A DNA stretch of 64,000 nucleotides from Halobaculum magnesiiphilum (GTDB lineage: Archaea > Halobacteriota > Halobacteria > Halobacteriales > Haloferacaceae): assembly GCF_019823105.1 (NCBI RefSeq), contig NZ_CP081958.1, forward strand, positions 620,001 through 684,000, given 5' to 3'. The position numbers were made by a program, and so were the translations under genes. Position 1 is the first letter of the stretch. Each line of letters opens with the position of its first letter. The notes under the pieces were generated by a model. The model was given only the letters and a program-made list of their open reading frames with translations. It did no database searches and was not told where the DNA came from. Below, in pieces: positions 50,851-63,935 of the stretch.

Positions 50851-51173
50851 ACCGTCTCTGGCGTCTGCTCAGCAGCCAGAACGCGGAGCGTTCCGGCAGC
50901 ACCACTGTATCGAGTTCAACTAGCATCTGAATTTTGGGGACGGGCAGGAGAGCGTCTTCGTTCGGGGATCGAGGTGGAGTGAGTGTGTCGAGGGGGCGCT
51001 TGAGTGTCAGTTGTCGTAGTCGATGCCCGCACGTCGGTCCACAGCACGGCGACCGTCGATTGTCGCGGTCGGGGTGACTGTCCACTCCCAATGGACCGAG
51101 TTCGCGTTCGGATCGCGGTGTCGAGTCCCGCCGTCATAGTCGGATTTATGAGGGATACTGTTTGACAGAGAAC
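50851..51173. other. Intergenic region without recognised gene
   Basis: This 320-base region between the VapB-like gene and the SufS-SufU gene holds no convincing frame. CGGATTTATGAGG at 51141-51153 provides a TATA-like TTTATG about 25-30 bases before the next start codon. Confidence 0.35.
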
Positions 51174-53567: not shown

Positions 53568-53825
53568 CGTTGATTGGTGAGACGGTACACACTGTAATGA
53601 GTGGTAGGTGTGAAAGCTACGAAAATACCGAACGTGAGTGAGGGGTGAGCTCTGGGTAGATCGCTGGGTGGGGATATCGAATCGGGTTACTCCAAGTCAA
53701 CCCGTCGTGAACCGCCTCAGGGGCAGACCTTGTGGCTTCCCGGGTTGCGATCCTCGTGACTGGAGGCGCAAGGTGTGGTCAATGCGCTCGCCAGATTGAT
53801 GGGCGATTCGTCCGTACCCCGGCCG

Positions 53826-54257
53826 ATGACGGACGAACCGCTGCAGGCGACCGTTACCCAGCGGGGTGTCGTCTTCGCGCCGACCGACGAGGTATTGATC
53901 GTCCGGCGAGCGACCGACGGCGGCTGGGAGCTGCCGGGCGGCCGCGTCGACCACGGCGAGCGTGCCGTCGCCGGCGTCCGCCGTGAGATCACCGAGGAGA
54001 CGACGCTCGACCCCGAGGTCGTCGCGCCCGTCGACACGCTCGTGTGGCGCAATGATTCTGGGGATGGGCGGTTCGCCGTGTACTACTACTGTCGGGTGGA
54101 TGAGCGGGACGTGTCGCTGTCCGGTGAGCATGACGAGTACGAGTGGACGGTGGTGCGTGAGGCTCGACGGCGATTGAGCGAGCCGCAGGCCGCGGCCGTT
54201 GTGCTGCGTTGGAGAGGCGGCGGTCGGAGTAACGTGAGCACCACCTCTGGATTATAG
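53826..54257 (+). CDS. Nudix hydrolase
   Basis: A 143-residue Nudix protein. The Nudix box is GGRVDHGERAVAGVRREITEET: the catalytic REXXEE core is intact, but the glycine that usually follows (EEXG) is Thr. Flanking parts show VLIVRRATDGGWELPGG and an aromatic strand (GRFAVYYYCRVD). The substrate, nucleoside-diphosphate derivative or capped RNA, is unknown. Start MTDEPLQATVTQRG is preferred over 17 upstream codons. Confidence 0.8.
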   Translation: MTDEPLQATVTQRGVVFAPTDEVLIVRRATDGGWELPGGRVDHGERAVAGVRREITEETTLDPEVVAPVDTLVWRNDSGDGRFAVYYYCRVDERDVSLSGEHDEYEWTVVREARRRLSEPQAAAVVLRWRGGGRSNVSTTSGL

Positions 54258-54409: not shown

Positions 54410-54502
54410 GCTTCAGTTGTCCAAAGGTATTTCATGTACACGTTTCACAAGTAGCCAACGAGAACGGCACGGGCTTCAGTTGTCCAAAGGTATTTCATGT
54501 AC
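54410..54502. repeat. Perfect 30-bp direct repeat, 33-base spacing
   Basis: Two identical copies of a 30-base sequence at 54410-54439 and 54473-54502, beginning GCTTCAGTTGTCC and ending ATTTCATGTAC, have a 63-base period. Each contains CCAAAGG followed by TATTTCA, which looks like a BRE-TATA pair. The second TATTTCA (54491-54497) lies 27-33 bases before the zinc-ribbon gene start, so this may be a duplicated core promoter. A two-repeat CRISPR remnant is the alternative. Confidence 0.65.
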
Positions 54503-54523: not shown

Positions 54524-54649
54524 ATGGCCGGGGACGGGCGAACCGAGTATTGTCCGCGGTGTGATGACCATTGTGAGGTGATCGAGACCGTCCCGTGGCA
54601 GTCGGACATGTGCAAGGAGTGCGGCGCCTCACTCGATGGGAATGAATGA
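54524..54649 (+). CDS. Zinc-ribbon microprotein
   Basis: A 41-residue protein, MAGDGRTEYCPRCDDHCEVI then DMCKECGASLDGNE. The pairs CPRC and CKEC form a zinc ribbon, like the many small zinc-finger proteins of haloarchaea that often affect stress or surface behaviour. The start fits a promoter inside the second copy of the 30-bp repeat. Function unknown. Confidence 0.7.
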   Translation: MAGDGRTEYCPRCDDHCEVIETVPWQSDMCKECGASLDGNE

Positions 54650-54734: not shown

Positions 54735-54890
54735 CTACCAGGTCCGTCATTCGAATACGATCCCGTTCCGTCGGTCGTTTGCGCGCTGACCGTTGATCAC
54801 CACCGGGGCCACAATCGCGTCGAACGCCTCGTCGAGGGTCGCGATCTCCTCTCAGTCGGTCACGATGAAGGCGGTGGGAGCGTCGTTGAG
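54735..54890 (-). pseudogene. Decayed 3' fragment of a UDP-glucose dehydrogenase gene (1)
   Basis: Read on the minus strand this piece gives LNDAPTAFIVTD-stop-EEIATLDEAFDAIVAPVVINGQ and then the degraded end RRNGIVFE. This matches the C-terminus of the intact gene at 57300 (GASAALIVTDWEEITSL; DEEFDAMATPVVIDG; RRDGIVYEGLTW). The Trp codon has become a stop and the end is out of frame. Only about 50 codons remain. Confidence 0.75.
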
Positions 54891-54942
54891 AGGTATAGTT
54901 GGTCGTAGTTCCTGAAGTACCGTACCTGTGGCCGTTTCCAAG

Positions 54943-56262
54943 TCAGCTTCGACATTCAGCGCAGTGGACCTGTCCCCCTGGTTTCGGAATCTCCATATCC
55001 AGTGGATTCTCGTAGACAACTTCTCCACACGCATCGCACACTGTCGGTACTTCCTGTGAGAGCCACTGCTGGATCGTTTCACGGGACAGCCCACAGTTCG
55101 CACAGATCGCTGCAGTCGGTACGTCCCGGAGATCATCCGTGTCGAACGTGTGCGCTCGTTCAGCACATGCATCGACACGGGGATCCGTCGACGCCCCTGA
55201 CTCTATGAGTTCGAACTCATCATTCCCAGCGACGGCTGGCGCTTGCAACCCAGTGAACTCAGAGCCATGTTGGACGCGTGCGGTCATCTCAGCTCCGTTC
55301 CCCTCCAACAACCGCATCCGATCGACATCGAGGACGCGGACAGGGAGACCCGAGGGACCGAGATATTTCGACCCGATGAACTTCTCCTCGATGTACTCCC
55401 ATGCGGTCTCGTACTGCTCGCGGAATGCCTCCATTGGGTCTTCGTGGTCGTACTGCTTCGCCAGGTTCGCGCCCTCCCGTGCGAAGCGGACCTTCGCGAA
55501 TGCCACAGGGAGGTCCTCGATCTCACGGAGCTCAAGCAGCTGCCGATACGCCTCGACCGTCGCCACTCCGTCTTCAGCCATTTGGCAGACTTCAACGAGT
55601 TTCCGTCGCGCCTGCCCACGGTGACCTGCATCAGCCAAGTTGACCGCGTCATCGACTAGTTCCTGTTTGTACGCACGTACGTCGGACGCCGACGCGACAT
55701 CCATCCGAACCGGATGGTGCAGTGTCCCGCGGCGTGCGGACGCGACCCGCTGGCGTGTCGAGATACGGTGCTCTGCTGCACGAATCTCTCCCCGAAGCTT
55801 ACTGAGCGCGATGGCGTCTGCGAGCGGTTCGCGATCGACATGGATTCGTTTGGTCTCCTGCTTGCGCCAGTCTCCGTGGTCAGCGTCCAGTATGTCCCAA
55901 CAGTAGCGCTGGAGGACTGTCCAGTACAGTTCCTCCCGAGACCGATCACAGATCACGAGAACAACCGGGACAGACGCCTGCAAGCAATCCTCAACAAGAA
56001 AATCCGTCTCAAAATCGTGCCAGACAGCCTCCGAGTCATCGAACCCCTCGGAAGCCTTCAGCTGGATGTAGAAGGGTGACGGAAGGACGCGATTACCGTG
56101 TTGGTCTCTGGTGTCGACCTCGAATCCCTCCGTGGGGCGAACCTCGAAGTCAAACGCGTAATCCTCGTCGAGTGAGTTCACCACCCACTTCGAGAGCGTC
56201 ATGCGCAACCGTCCCCGCGAATAGCGTTCGAGTTCGTGGTTTCGGTCCGTCTGCTTCCCCAT
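54943..56262 (-). CDS. DUF4365-type nuclease-like protein with zinc-binding tail
   Basis: A 439-residue protein. Residues 10-140 match the DUF4365 pattern, a PD-(D/E)XK-like fold: DYAFDFEVRPTEGFEVDTRD, FYIQLKASEGFDDSE and VPVVLVICDRSREELYWTVLQ. Here D/E...QLK could be the catalytic set. A helical middle (residues 190-290) follows. The C-terminus has cysteine pairs (CANCG, CDACG, CAEC) forming zinc ribbons and a helix-turn-helix-like LSRETIQQWLSQE. DUF4365 proteins often occur in defence islands. No partner gene is present. Flanked on both sides by ugd fragments. Confidence 0.75.
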   Translation of the reverse strand: MGKQTDRNHELERYSRGRLRMTLSKWVVNSLDEDYAFDFEVRPTEGFEVDTRDQHGNRVLPSPFYIQLKASEGFDDSEAVWHDFETDFLVEDCLQASVPVVLVICDRSREELYWTVLQRYCWDILDADHGDWRKQETKRIHVDREPLADAIALSKLRGEIRAAEHRISTRQRVASARRGTLHHPVRMDVASASDVRAYKQELVDDAVNLADAGHRGQARRKLVEVCQMAEDGVATVEAYRQLLELREIEDLPVAFAKVRFAREGANLAKQYDHEDPMEAFREQYETAWEYIEEKFIGSKYLGPSGLPVRVLDVDRMRLLEGNGAEMTARVQHGSEFTGLQAPAVAGNDEFELIESGASTDPRVDACAERAHTFDTDDLRDVPTAAICANCGLSRETIQQWLSQEVPTVCDACGEVVYENPLDMEIPKPGGQVHCAECRS

Positions 56263-57299
56263 AGGTGACCAACAGGTTCCGTGCCCCTGAAGACATCGGC
56301 GATAGTAGGAGAAGGAGGAAATTCGGTAGTCGGTGAACCGTATTTGTCCTAGTGGTAGGCCAACTACCAGGTTAGCCCCTCGTACACGATCCCGTCCCGA
56401 TGGTCGATCGCGCGGCGGCCGCACCGTGCTCCTAAAGCTCCTCAATGATCGGCATGGCACGAGAATTCCGGGTATCGTCCGTACCCGGTTTGAACGCCAA
56501 GCCAAGTGTCCCACCAGCGCGAGTAGAACGGCCTTGCGACCGCGCTCCTCACCGTCGATGAGCACATCGACGACGAGGGCGGCATGTCTCTGTCGAGCCG
56601 ACGTGGGTAGTTGAATGCGTAACCGGTCTCGGCTCACGGGTCGCCGGTGCGTTCCGGAACCGAACGGGGGAAGACTCGGCTTCGAGGCCACCGCCTCGAC
56701 CTCGTCGCGGCCGCCCGCGAATCGATGAAAACCAGCGTCGTCGATCCGAACCGCGTCGCCTCTATGGAGTCCCGATGTGGGTCAGTCGCTGCCGAATATT
56801 TGGCGCGACATCAGAACTACGGGGTACCCATCAGGTAGTCCATTTTGCAGGAGGAACCTTAGACGCTGCTCTGTCCGGTTTTCCCTTGATTTTGCTCCAA
56901 TAGAAGGTAACAGTGCTTAAACAGCGCGGCGAGACATACGTCAGTCTCCTTTCGAATTTATAATCAAAGGCTATGAGGGTAACAGTAAGGCTATCCGAAT
57001 CTCTATACACGTCGCCATTGTATCCAATTTATCAGAAGTCCAAGTGTTTTCCTGCAGGTACAGGCACGAAACGTGACGATTCGTATTCACACGACGGCGC
57101 CGGTTGTTTATAAAGAACTCGGCCCCGGTCGATTAGATATCGTCACGCTGCGTGACAGCACTCGTCGCCGTCTGGTGATTCGCTAAATACACGGTACTGC
57201 GGCGGGGTGATAAATGTTCGGTATTAGTCAAATAATAGCATAATTACGGATGGATGGGGGGAGTATTTATCGAAGCTTCGGAACTGGTCGAAACGACAG
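56263..57299. other. Long decayed intergenic region
   Basis: About 1 kb without an intact gene. It begins with a ugd fragment (56364-56575), then mixed sequence with short frames. From about 56830 it is markedly AT-rich, with TATA-like stretches (ATTTATAATC, 56955-56964) and a perfect 15-base palindrome GTCACGC-T-GCGTGAC at 57142-57156. No RNA gene was recognised. It marks the boundary between the island and the glycan locus. Confidence 0.4.
56364..56575 (-). pseudogene. Decayed 3' fragment of a UDP-glucose dehydrogenase gene (2)
   Basis: Minus-strand reading in two frames gives [20 protein letters not shown] followed by IEEL and a stop, and after a deletion GRRAIDHRDGIVYEGLTW to the normal stop codon. 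These correspond to two parts of the intact gene at 57300 with about 60 codons missing between them. Upstream, [16 protein letters not shown] is a weak match to the segment before LGLAFKPG. Confidence 0.75.
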
Positions 57300-58604
57300 T
57301 TACCAGGTAAGCCCTTCGTAGACGATTCCGTCTCTGCGATCGATCGCCCGGCGGCCGTCTATGACAACGGGTGTGGCCATGGCGTCGAACTCCTCGTCGA
57401 GCGAGGTGATTTCCTCCCAGTCGGTGACGATTAGGGCGGCTGAGGCGCCATCAAGTGCGGCTGCAGGGCTTTCTGCGTACTGGATGTCGGGGAAGTGCTC
57501 GCCCATGTTCTCGGCAGCGATGGGGTCGTAGGCGGCGATCTCGGCGCCGCGTTGTTGCAGCCCCTCGATGACGGGGATTGCGCGAGAGTTGCGGACGTCG
57601 TCAGTGCCGGGCTTGAACGCAAGGCCCAGAACGGCGACGCGTTTGTTCGTGACGTCGACGTGTTTGTCCATGAACGAGAGGAGGCGCTTTGGTTGTTCGT
57701 CGTTCACCTCGGTTGCGGCGTCGAGCATGAACGGTTCGTAGTCGTGCTGGCGGGCCGCTGCGCGGATCGCGGCGGTGTCCTTGGGGAAACAGCTTCCGCC
57801 CCACCCGAGCCCGCTGCGGAGGAACTGTGCGCCGATACGGTCGTCGAGACCGATGGCGTCGGCAACCTCGTAGGCGTCGACGCCGAGCTCCTTGCAAATG
57901 TTCCCGATGTCGTTGATGAGGCTTACTTTGGCTGCGAGGAAGGAGTTGTTCGCGTACTTGATCATCTCCGCCGTTCGGGTGTTCGTCTCGACGACCGGTG
58001 CTTGGGTTCGTTCGACGAGCGGGTCGAACACCTCGTGCATATCCGCGAGCGCACGGTCGTCGTCGGCGCCGAGGACGATCTTGTCCGGATCGAGGAAGTC
58101 GTGGACTGCCGTTCCTTCTCGGAGGAACTCAGGGTTCATCCCGACGCCGAAGTCTTCGCCTGTGGTCTTGTTTGACTCTCGCTCAAGGATTGGGGTGATT
58201 TCGTCCTCGGTGGAGCCTGGGACGACCGTGCTCTTCACGACGACAGTGTGCCAGTCATTCTTTTCGGCGAGGGTTTCGCCTAATTGTTCGGCTCCGGCCT
58301 CCATGATCGAAAGATCGATGCTGCCGTCGTCGTTCTGCGGTGTTGGGAGGCAGAGGAAGGTCGCGTCGGTGTCGAGAAGTTCGGCGTAGTCGGTGGTAGC
58401 GCGGAGCCGGTTTGTGCTGTTGGAGCCGGCGTGTTTCTTGAGGAGCTCCGGGAGGCCGTCCTCGTGGATGGGTGCCTCGCCGGTGTTGATGACGTCGACG
58501 GTTTCCTGATCGATATCGATGTTGACGACGTGGTGGCCGAGATCCGCGAAGCAGGCCGCGATCGTCGTGCCGACGTAGCCGCTGCCGACGACGGAGAGGT
58601 GCAT
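57300..58604 (-). CDS. aglM: UDP-glucose 6-dehydrogenase
   Basis: A 434-residue nucleotide-sugar dehydrogenase making UDP-glucuronate. NAD site VVGSGYVGTTIAACFADLGH at residues 5-24; the central domain has NPEFLREGTAVHDFLDPD and MIKYANNSFLAAKVSLINDI; the catalytic cysteine is in GWGGSCFPKDTAA near residue 267; the C-terminal domain has [16 protein letters not shown]. It matches AglM of haloarchaeal protein N-glycosylation. It is divergent from aglF with 87 bases between start codons. Two broken copies of its 3' end lie upstream in the island. Confidence 0.92.
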   Translation of the reverse strand: MHLSVVGSGYVGTTIAACFADLGHHVVNIDIDQETVDVINTGEAPIHEDGLPELLKKHAGSNSTNRLRATTDYAELLDTDATFLCLPTPQNDDGSIDLSIMEAGAEQLGETLAEKNDWHTVVVKSTVVPGSTEDEITPILERESNKTTGEDFGVGMNPEFLREGTAVHDFLDPDKIVLGADDDRALADMHEVFDPLVERTQAPVVETNTRTAEMIKYANNSFLAAKVSLINDIGNICKELGVDAYEVADAIGLDDRIGAQFLRSGLGWGGSCFPKDTAAIRAAARQHDYEPFMLDAATEVNDEQPKRLLSFMDKHVDVTNKRVAVLGLAFKPGTDDVRNSRAIPVIEGLQQRGAEIAAYDPIAAENMGEHFPDIQYAESPAAALDGASAALIVTDWEEITSLDEEFDAMATPVVIDGRRAIDRRDGIVYEGLTW

Positions 58605-58691: not shown

Positions 58692-59444
58692 ATGAAAGCC
58701 GTTGTACTGGCCGCCGGCGAGGGGACGCGGTTGCGTCCGCTCACAGAGGACAAACCGAAGGGGATGGTCGAGGTCGACGGGAAGCCCATCCTGACACACT
58801 GCTTCGAGCAGCTGGTGGAGCTGGGCGCCGATGAACTGGTGGTGGTGGTCGGCTACCTGAAGCAGAACATCATCGAGCACTACGGCGACGAGTTCGAGGG
58901 GGTGCCGATTACGTACGCACACCAGCGTGAACAGAAAGGGCTCGCGCATGCGCTGTTAAACGTCGAAGAGCACATTGACGACGACTTCATGCTGTTGCTC
59001 GGGGACAACATCTTCCAAGCGAATCTGGAAGACGTGGTTCGTCGGCAGCAGGAGGACCGGGCAGATGCGGCGTTCCTCGTGGAGGAGGTTGACTGGGAGG
59101 ATGCTAGTCGGTACGGGGTGTGTGACACAAATCAATACGGGGAGATTACTGACGTAGTGGAGAAGCCAGAAGAGCCGCCGTCGAACCTGGTGATGACCGG
59201 GTTCTACACGTTCACCCCGGCGATTTTCCACGCGTGTCACCTCGTGCAGCCTTCTAACCGTGGCGAGTACGAGATTTCTGAGGCGATTGATCTGTTGATT
59301 CAGAGTGGGCGGACGATCGACGCGATTGGGTTGGAAGGATGGCGGATTGACGTTGGGTATCCCGAGGACCGAGATGAGGCAGAGAAGCGGTTAACTGAGA
59401 CTCAGAGTGCTGAATCTGAGTCCCAACCGTCGGCCGAGTCTTAA
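58692..59444 (+). CDS. aglF: UTP-glucose-1-phosphate uridylyltransferase-like (AglF)
   Basis: A 250-residue sugar-1-phosphate nucleotidyltransferase. The activating motif is AVVLAAGEGTRLRPLTEDKPKGM; LGDNIFQANLEDVV carries the metal-binding aspartate; VVEKPEEPPSNLVMTGFYTF and EYEISEAIDLLIQSGRTI follow. It corresponds to AglF of Haloferax, which makes UDP-glucose used by AglM for the N-glycan uronic acids. The tail (ESESQPSAES) is hydrophilic. The ATG at 58692 gives the family start MKAVVLAAG. Confidence 0.92.
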   Translation: MKAVVLAAGEGTRLRPLTEDKPKGMVEVDGKPILTHCFEQLVELGADELVVVVGYLKQNIIEHYGDEFEGVPITYAHQREQKGLAHALLNVEEHIDDDFMLLLGDNIFQANLEDVVRRQQEDRADAAFLVEEVDWEDASRYGVCDTNQYGEITDVVEKPEEPPSNLVMTGFYTFTPAIFHACHLVQPSNRGEYEISEAIDLLIQSGRTIDAIGLEGWRIDVGYPEDRDEAEKRLTETQSAESESQPSAES

Positions 59445-61927: not shown

Positions 61928-63121
61928 ATGGGTCGATTAGTTTTTTCAGATGTCGATGGCGTTCTCACAGACTCAAAAATCAATATAGGCCAAGACGGTG
62001 AGATTTTCAAATCGTTTAATGTGAAAGATGGATATGGGATCGTCCAGTGGCGGAAACAGGATGGTAATGACTTCGTGTTTATCACCTCAAGGGAATCTCA
62101 AGCTGTTGTTAATCGCGCGTTGGAGCTTGGTGTGGAAGAAGTCCATCAAGGGGTGAAAAATAAACAACGAAAAGTCAAGGAGATCGCGTCTCGTCTCGGG
62201 TTCGATCTGACGGATACAGTTTATATTGGTGACGATTTGACGGACTTACAGAGTCTGAAAACCGTCGGCACGGCCTGTTCTCCTAAAGATGCGGCTCCAG
62301 AAATTAAAAACGAGTGTTCCTACGTCAGCCAGTATAACGGTGGTGACGGAGCTGTTCGGGACATCCTGAATTATTTAGAATCTGTTTCCCAAACGACACT
62401 CGGTGTTATCCCCGCTCGATACGGGTCAACACGCCTGCCCGGCAAACCATTAATCAAGCTCGCTGGTAAGCCGATGATTCAGCATGTATACGAGCGTGCG
62501 AGAGACGCAACGCTGCTTGATGATCTCATCGTCGCAACAGATGATGAACGCATCGCTGAGGCGGTTGAGGCAGTCGGTGGTACCGCAGTGATGACCGACC
62601 CTGACCATCCAACTGGAACGGATCGGGTGGCAGAAGTCGCAGCGAACGTGGAAGCAGACTTTACGATCAACATTCAGGGTGACGAGCCGTTAATCGACCC
62701 AGATGTCATAGACGCTATCGTGTTAGCTCTTCGAGAAAGCTCTCCGAAAGTTGCAACCCCGATTTCGACAATCGAAGACAACTCTCTTCTTGATGACGAA
62801 AATACCGTAAAGGTGGTAACCGACACCAATGGCAGAGCACTCTACTTTTCACGGGCGAAAATACCGTCTGGTGGAGAAGTAGGTAATACATACAAACACA
62901 TTGGCCTATACGGATTCAAGACAGAGTTGTTACTCGATTACGTCAATATGGAGTCGAAGCTAGAATCCGCTGAAGACTTAGAACAACTCCGACTGCTCGA
63001 AAACGGGTACGAGATACAGACTGTAGAGACGGACTACGACCCCAAAGAGGTTAATGTGAAACGTGATATACAAGTAGTAGAAGAAGAAATGCAACGAGAG
63101 CGCACCAATGAAACTCACTAA
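61928..63121 (+). CDS. Kdo-8-phosphate phosphatase / CMP-Kdo synthetase fusion (KdsC-KdsB)
   Basis: A 397-residue bifunctional protein. Residues 1-150 are a KdsC-type HAD phosphatase: VFSDVDGVLTDSKI with D8 and D10, FKSFNVKDGYGI, FITSRESQAV, and VYIGDDLTDLQSL with D102/D103. It removes phosphate from Kdo-8-P. Residues 157-397 are KdsB, CTP:Kdo cytidylyltransferase: VIPARYGSTRLPGKPLIKLAG, HPTGTDRVAEVA, NIQGDEPLIDPDVI, YFSRAKIPSGG, KHIGLYGFK and SAEDLEQLRLLENGYEI. It activates Kdo as CMP-Kdo. The gene overlaps kdsA by 14 bases. Low GC suggests bacterial origin. Confidence 0.9.
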   Translation: MGRLVFSDVDGVLTDSKINIGQDGEIFKSFNVKDGYGIVQWRKQDGNDFVFITSRESQAVVNRALELGVEEVHQGVKNKQRKVKEIASRLGFDLTDTVYIGDDLTDLQSLKTVGTACSPKDAAPEIKNECSYVSQYNGGDGAVRDILNYLESVSQTTLGVIPARYGSTRLPGKPLIKLAGKPMIQHVYERARDATLLDDLIVATDDERIAEAVEAVGGTAVMTDPDHPTGTDRVAEVAANVEADFTINIQGDEPLIDPDVIDAIVLALRESSPKVATPISTIEDNSLLDDENTVKVVTDTNGRALYFSRAKIPSGGEVGNTYKHIGLYGFKTELLLDYVNMESKLESAEDLEQLRLLENGYEIQTVETDYDPKEVNVKRDIQVVEEEMQRERTNETH

Positions 63122-63935
63122 TAGTATCTCGGTCTCTAACGAAGACCAATTCTTCCTTATTGCAGGACCGTGTGTGATCGAATCAGAGAAACAAGTGCTG
63201 CAAACAGCACGAGAACTAAAAGAGATTACTAACCGCCACAACATCGAACTAATCTTCAAGAGCTCGTTTGACAAAGCCAACCGCTCGTCGATTAGTTCCT
63301 ACCGGGGCCCCGGGATGGAACGTGGACTCGAAATTCTGCAGCGCGTCAAAGACAAGTATGATCTGCCGGTTATAACTGATTTCCACGCCCCTGAACAGGC
63401 AGAGGCGGTCGCAGACGTGGTTGACGTTCTACAAGTGCCTGCGTTCCTCTCACGACAAACGGATATGCTCACGGCTGCCGGTGAAACGGGGTTACCAATT
63501 AATGTAAAGAAAGGACAGTTTCTCTCAGCAGATGGCATGGACAATGTTGTTAACAAGATTGAATCCACGGGGAACGAACAGGTTATGCTCTGCGAACGCG
63601 GTGCGATGTTCGGATATAATAACCTCGTTGTCGATATGCGGAATTTAGATATCATGAAAGAGCTTGGCAAGCCAGTCGTGTTCGACACAACACACTCGGT
63701 GCAGCGTCCGGGCGCACGCGGTGACTCCAGTGGTGGCGACCGTCAGTTTGCGCCGACGTTAGCGCGGGCTGCACTCGGAGCTGGGGTGGCGGGTATCTTC
63801 GCTGAAGTGCATCCTGATCCGCCGTCAGCTAAATGTGATGCAGCCACACAACTTCCCCTTGATGAATTCGAATCGCTTGTTAAAAAATGGAAAGCGATTG
63901 ATGACACGGTGAAGGATAGTGAGCGACATGACTGA
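63108..63935 (+). CDS. kdsA: 3-deoxy-D-manno-octulosonate-8-phosphate synthase
   Basis: A 275-residue Kdo-8-P synthase condensing arabinose-5-phosphate with phosphoenolpyruvate. Diagnostic motifs: IAGPCVIESEKQ, IFKSSFDKANRSSISSYRGP, VPAFLSRQTDMLTAAGETG, INVKKGQFLS, FGYNNLVVDMRNLDIM, and FAEVHPDPPSAKCD. Cys22 in GPC points to the metal-dependent class (like Aquifex) rather than the E. coli Asn type. It lies inside the kds operon, overlapping both neighbours. Confidence 0.93.
   Translation: MKLTNSISVSNEDQFFLIAGPCVIESEKQVLQTARELKEITNRHNIELIFKSSFDKANRSSISSYRGPGMERGLEILQRVKDKYDLPVITDFHAPEQAEAVADVVDVLQVPAFLSRQTDMLTAAGETGLPINVKKGQFLSADGMDNVVNKIESTGNEQVMLCERGAMFGYNNLVVDMRNLDIMKELGKPVVFDTTHSVQRPGARGDSSGGDRQFAPTLARAALGAGVAGIFAEVHPDPPSAKCDAATQLPLDEFESLVKKWKAIDDTVKDSERHD

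Follow-up and report, generated by a model that had tools for sequence, protein, structure and literature searches.

Deletion scars of a divergent aglM–aglF gene pair at the edge of a probable replacement-type glycosylation island in Halobaculum magnesiiphilum

The 64,000-nucleotide window analyzed here (C1:620001-684000, where C1 is contig NZ_CP081958.1; positions without a prefix are counted within the window) belongs to the 3.73-Mb genome of Halobaculum magnesiiphilum (G000) and contains one intact and two decayed copies of aglM, all on the minus strand. Part of the 487-kb contig of this genome shows 96% identity to a plasmid of Halobaculum roseum. The intact aglM (57300..58604) encodes a 434-aa UDP-glucose 6-dehydrogenase and is paired, as in many other haloarchaea, with the divergently oriented aglF (58692..59444, plus strand), which encodes a UTP-glucose-1-phosphate uridylyltransferase; both products exceed curated equivalog cut-offs (775 bits versus 670 for NCBIfam NF041297 and 444.7 bits versus 400 for NF041313, respectively). 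Remnant A (54735..54902) corresponds to aa 380-434 of AglM and carries two in-frame stops, and the aglM part of remnant B (56364..56509) comprises aa 417-434 and aa 324-357, with the intervening part deleted. Both remnants keep the natural aglM stop codon and lie on either side of an intact DUF4365 gene (54943..56262, minus strand; 439 aa). Alignment to the intact gene thus confirmed the three copies where a previous reading of this DNA, made from the sequence only (hereafter, the sequence-only reading), had placed them.

Remnant A matches the intact aglM with 72% identity over 139 nt (E = 1.6e-15) and remnant B with 82% identity over the 57 nt that encode aa 417-434 and the stop codon; against 500 shuffles that kept dinucleotide composition, the z-scores were 24.8 and 20.9, respectively. 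Mismatches fell mostly at third codon positions (25/39 in A and 8/10 in B), indicating that both copies diverged as working genes and were broken later. The sequence-only reading had assigned all of 56364-56575 to the aglM C-terminus, which held for 56364-56509; the outer part of B (56510-56576) is instead a piece of aglF on the plus strand (aa 72-98; 63% aa identity; tblastn E = 7.5e-7) that directly abuts the aglM part and shows 88% nucleotide identity to aglF of a congener (G005) and 87% to an aglF remnant of the sister species (G007). Remnant A is a further stump, probably an older one.

A fourth copy, remnant C, was identified outside the window (C1:708397-708830), about 31 kb to the right of the intact pair; it contains an aglM piece that starts at approximately aa 296, runs through to the C-terminus with one frameshift, and abuts approximately the last 80 codons of aglF. 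At the nucleotide level, C is 86-88% identical to the intact pair in G005 and 82% identical to the one in another congener, G008. Because each consists of a truncated aglM fused to a piece of aglF, B and C are the same kind of scar, i.e., a divergent pair that has lost its promoter and both 5′ ends. The sequence-only reading had considered aglM alone; the unit is rather the divergent aglM–aglF pair, and remnants lie on both sides of the island.

A maximum-likelihood phylogeny built from 67 AglM sequences placed C with the native Halobaculum aglM of G002, G005, and G008 (copy 1) with support of 100/100, and placed the intact aglM as sister to that of Halolamina pelagica (100/99), in a clade distant from C; the intact aglF encodes a protein with 97.5% aa identity to its H. 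pelagica counterpart. The non-coding flank downstream of the intact aglM (56786..57299) is 78% identical to the flank downstream of aglM in Halobellus clavatus (L086) and, from 57048 on, 84% identical to that in H. pelagica, so that the Halolamina-type aglM brought some 500 nt of downstream sequence along. The combination of a native lineage in C and a Halolamina-like lineage in the intact copy indicates import and decay rather than local duplication. In G008, both pairs are present in tandem and in the same orientation, the native pair preceding the Halolamina-type pair, whose aglF is frameshifted; this arrangement is the state expected before decay of a spare pair. Two aglM loci seen in H. 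pelagica (L039 and L062; NZ_LGUC01000001.1) proved to be an artefact of an unjoined circle, as 16 kb at one end of the contig recur at the other with 99.9% identity.

Comparison with the sister species by blastn revealed collinearity on the left up to 53984, inside a gene encoding a Nudix hydrolase that marks the left edge of the island (53775..54257, plus strand; Pfam NUDIX, 1.5e-17), and again on the right from C1:708799, inside the aglF part of C; flank identity was 95% on the left and 92-99% on the right. Between these flanks, the sister species holds a largely different glycan cluster without aglM, the exception being a block of KDO-type genes with 74% DNA identity. The sister species also has an aglF stump at this right edge, which begins at aa 73 and was thus cut independently. 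The island in H. magnesiiphilum encodes exposed surface structures (aglM, aglF, a flippase-like ABC transporter, and KDO-type enzymes), and glycosyltransferase-like and sulfatase-like open reading frames (ORFs) were recognized in it by eye only. The KDO-type genes (61928-63935 in the window and C1:683919-684908) form a full CMP-KDO-type set, namely a KdsC-KdsB fusion, KdsA, and a KpsF/KdsD-like isomerase, all of which exceed an NCBIfam cut-off. Beside the island, C1:725863-740357 aligned to G007:703792-718286 contains stretches with 0% divergence next to stretches at 10-12%, which suggests recent exchange between the two species.

We consider it probable that this locus is the aglM–aglF edge of a replacement-type glycosylation island of Halobaculum, into which a pair was imported and at which spare pairs were subsequently deleted to scars. 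A block with a Halolamina-like aglM–aglF pair would have been inserted next to the native pair already present, so that one of the two became dispensable; redundant pairs would then lose the shared divergent promoter and both 5′ ends through short non-homologous deletions, and the inert 3′ ends would remain joined, as B on the left side of the imported pair and as C on its right. The DUF4365 gene in the gap may encode a DNA nuclease of defence type that is active and moves together with this island edge. At least one cluster replacement is well supported; the sequence-only reading had proposed repeated replacement, and replacement itself stands, given the native C, the imported intact pair, the different island of the sister species, and the tandem pairs of G008, whereas repetition is not proven, because A and B are too short to be assigned to a lineage or placed on a tree. 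The order and number of events, and the origin of A and B in separate turnovers, are inferred. Several observations weigh against our reading. Both A and B score slightly better with the lineage of the intact aglM and might be old relatives of the gene now in place, not scars of other clusters; the junction overlap in C is only about 1-5 nt; and the block common to H. pelagica comprises the pair plus only about 250 nt, so short that import of a whole cluster in a single event is not demonstrated. Moreover, a peak of synonymous changes, as reported at the borders of replacement islands, is not clear here. Divergence from the sister species, with synonymous and other changes taken together, is patchy: it amounts to 4-5% on the left border of the island, 8% on the right border, and 0-15% in the flanks. 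The comparison used one genome per species.

Local tandem duplication of aglM or of the pair, followed by decay in place and involving no foreign import, would account for the position of A and B within 2.6 kb of the intact aglM, their shared orientation, and their slightly better scores with it. This explanation is already refuted for C, however, by the native lineage of that remnant; the 18-28% divergence of A and B from the intact gene lies mostly at third codon positions, so they had already separated as functional genes when they broke, and the sister species holds a different island at this place. We therefore regard local duplication as unlikely. Chance similarity in GC-rich coding sequence, the outcome that the sequence-only reading had named as its refutation, was rejected as having practically no probability in view of the shuffle z-scores, the stop codons in register, the third-position mismatch pattern, and the aglF fragments adjoining the aglM remnants.

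A tyrosine-recombinase element that attaches at the 3′ end of aglM, with each integration leaving a displaced 3′ end behind, could explain why most partial aglM copies in related genomes retain that end, and two integrase-like (tyrosine recombinase) genes are indeed located 1.2-4.2 kb from C. Yet the left edge has no exact repeat of ≥15 nt in common with the right edge, an argument against site-specific integration; remnant lengths vary widely, two remnants are joined to aglF pieces, no integrase was recognized among the called genes adjoining the aglF stump of the sister species, and a search for tRNA genes as evidence of an attachment site found none. Such integration thus seems quite improbable, and turnover of an imported island followed by deletion of spare pairs remains our preferred explanation.

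Replacement flexible genomic islands encoding surface structures have been described previously (Lopez-Perez et al. 2014, PMC4033161), including GI1 of Haloquadratum walsbyi (PMC4535781). The island described here resembles them in that close relatives carry different genes of related function, for surface glycans or the S-layer, at the same chromosomal place; it differs in that both of its edges bear deletion scars of a defined gene pair. N-glycosylation clusters in Haloferax span aglJ to aglM and differ in content between isolates (PMC5867893); AglF and AglM belong to one pathway there, the cluster likewise ends at aglM, and its content is likewise variable, whereas the H. magnesiiphilum pair is divergently arranged and has left stumps. 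The word pseudogene is absent from that paper, and no account of aglM or aglF remnants was found in it. Thus, while the class of replacement glycosylation islands is already known, the deletion scars of aglM–aglF and their association with a nuclease gene appear to be new. Exchanges of this kind in the past usually leave no visible trace, and replacement islands are thought to alter the virus sensitivity of prokaryotes; virus pressure on surface glycans may drive the turnover of this island. With recognizable scars of one conserved gene pair, such exchanges can be counted and dated throughout the haloarchaea, and the lineage that disappeared can be identified.

Pieces of aglM without the N-terminus were found in at least six other genomes among 167 in the family (G199, G472, G170, G465, G475, and G458), and among the matches listed only one genome (G006) showed a piece without the C-terminus. 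The piece in G199 is also internally deleted, and in G170, which represents another genus, the piece runs directly into the 3′ end of aglF, the same kind of scar as C; additional aglM 3′ pieces occur in Halobellus salinus (L043) and in G159. These counts are lower bounds, and some of the pieces lie in draft assemblies. The bias toward retained 3′ ends is suggestive, and may arise because loss of the 5′ end and promoter silences a spare gene and leaves the far 3′ end inert. A possible fifth remnant in H. magnesiiphilum (D, 51011-51093, upstream of sufS) has a translation, IDGRRAVDRRAGIDYD, similar to the C-terminus of AglM, and over 47 nt it is 87% identical to one of the G008 copies, but against the intact gene its similarity was not significant (z = 1.8). 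In five other loci (L078, L081, L083, L087, and L088), aglM is interrupted by about 1.4 kb near residue 271-276, in the region of the catalytic Cys; one such interrupted gene (G022:C1:2897851-2900565) is a single open frame of 938 aa, and the insert is probably an intein.

The DUF4365 protein scores 37 bits against the Pfam PF14280 gathering cut-off of 24.3 (E = 4.4e-9) and contains the PD-(D/E)XK motif D38xE40...Q67xK69 as well as C-terminal Cys pairs; D38, E40, Q67, K69, and several of the Cys pairs are kept in all five aligned homologues. The gene product looks like an intact PD-(D/E)XK nuclease, probably with a role in defence. No relatives were found in viral contigs, profile searches matched no solved structure, and a structure prediction from the single sequence was unusable (pLDDT 38.6). 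In a characterized short-Argonaute system, DUF4365-APAZ (SPARDA), the DUF4365 protein is a nuclease whose active site contains a Q-x-K pair (Q62 and K64; PMC10810196), and the protein described here shares the same Pfam domain and the Q-x-K pair (Q67 and K69). Unlike in SPARDA, its Pfam search gives DUF4365 only, without an APAZ domain, its C-terminal half has Cys pairs, and its gene adjoins no Argonaute gene, the neighbours being aglM remnants, Nudix, and aglM. The match from PADLOC was partial, spanning 51 residues, and weak (E = 6e-4).

This 440-aa form of DUF4365 occurs in just six of several hundred genomes searched; in five of the six, it is located less than 4 kb from aglM–aglF or an aglM remnant, whereas neither aglM nor aglF occurs within about 10 kb of any of nine other DUF4365 genes checked, most of which encode a form of about 620 aa. 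The gene adjoins an intact aglM–aglF pair in G113 and G421 (where the DUF4365 gene is broken), lies 3.9 kb away in G195, and lies 2.2 kb from an aglM remnant in G159; G379 is the exception. Since orientation and spacing vary, the association is not a simple inherited gene order. The sequence-only reading had seen the DUF4365 gene as cargo captured between broken aglM copies; a gene that recurs next to aglM–aglF is the more fitting description. The linkage of a rare predicted nuclease to aglM–aglF in several families points to a testable defence or mobility role. It is conceivable, though highly unlikely, that the 440-aa nuclease itself drives turnover by cutting at or near the aglM–aglF of clusters that lack it, in a homing-like manner; incoming islands would then replace resident ones and leave scars of truncated aglM fused to truncated aglF.

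Two further features lie between the Nudix gene and remnant A. A perfect 30-bp direct repeat (GCTTCAGTTGTCCAAAGGTATTTCATGTAC) is present at 54410-54439 and 54473-54502, with the two copies 63 bp apart, and is found nowhere else in the genome. A tiny ORF on the plus strand (54524-54649), with two CxxC pairs (MAGDGRTEYCPRCDDHCEVIETVPWQSDMCKECGASLDGNE), resembles small haloarchaeal zinc-finger proteins.
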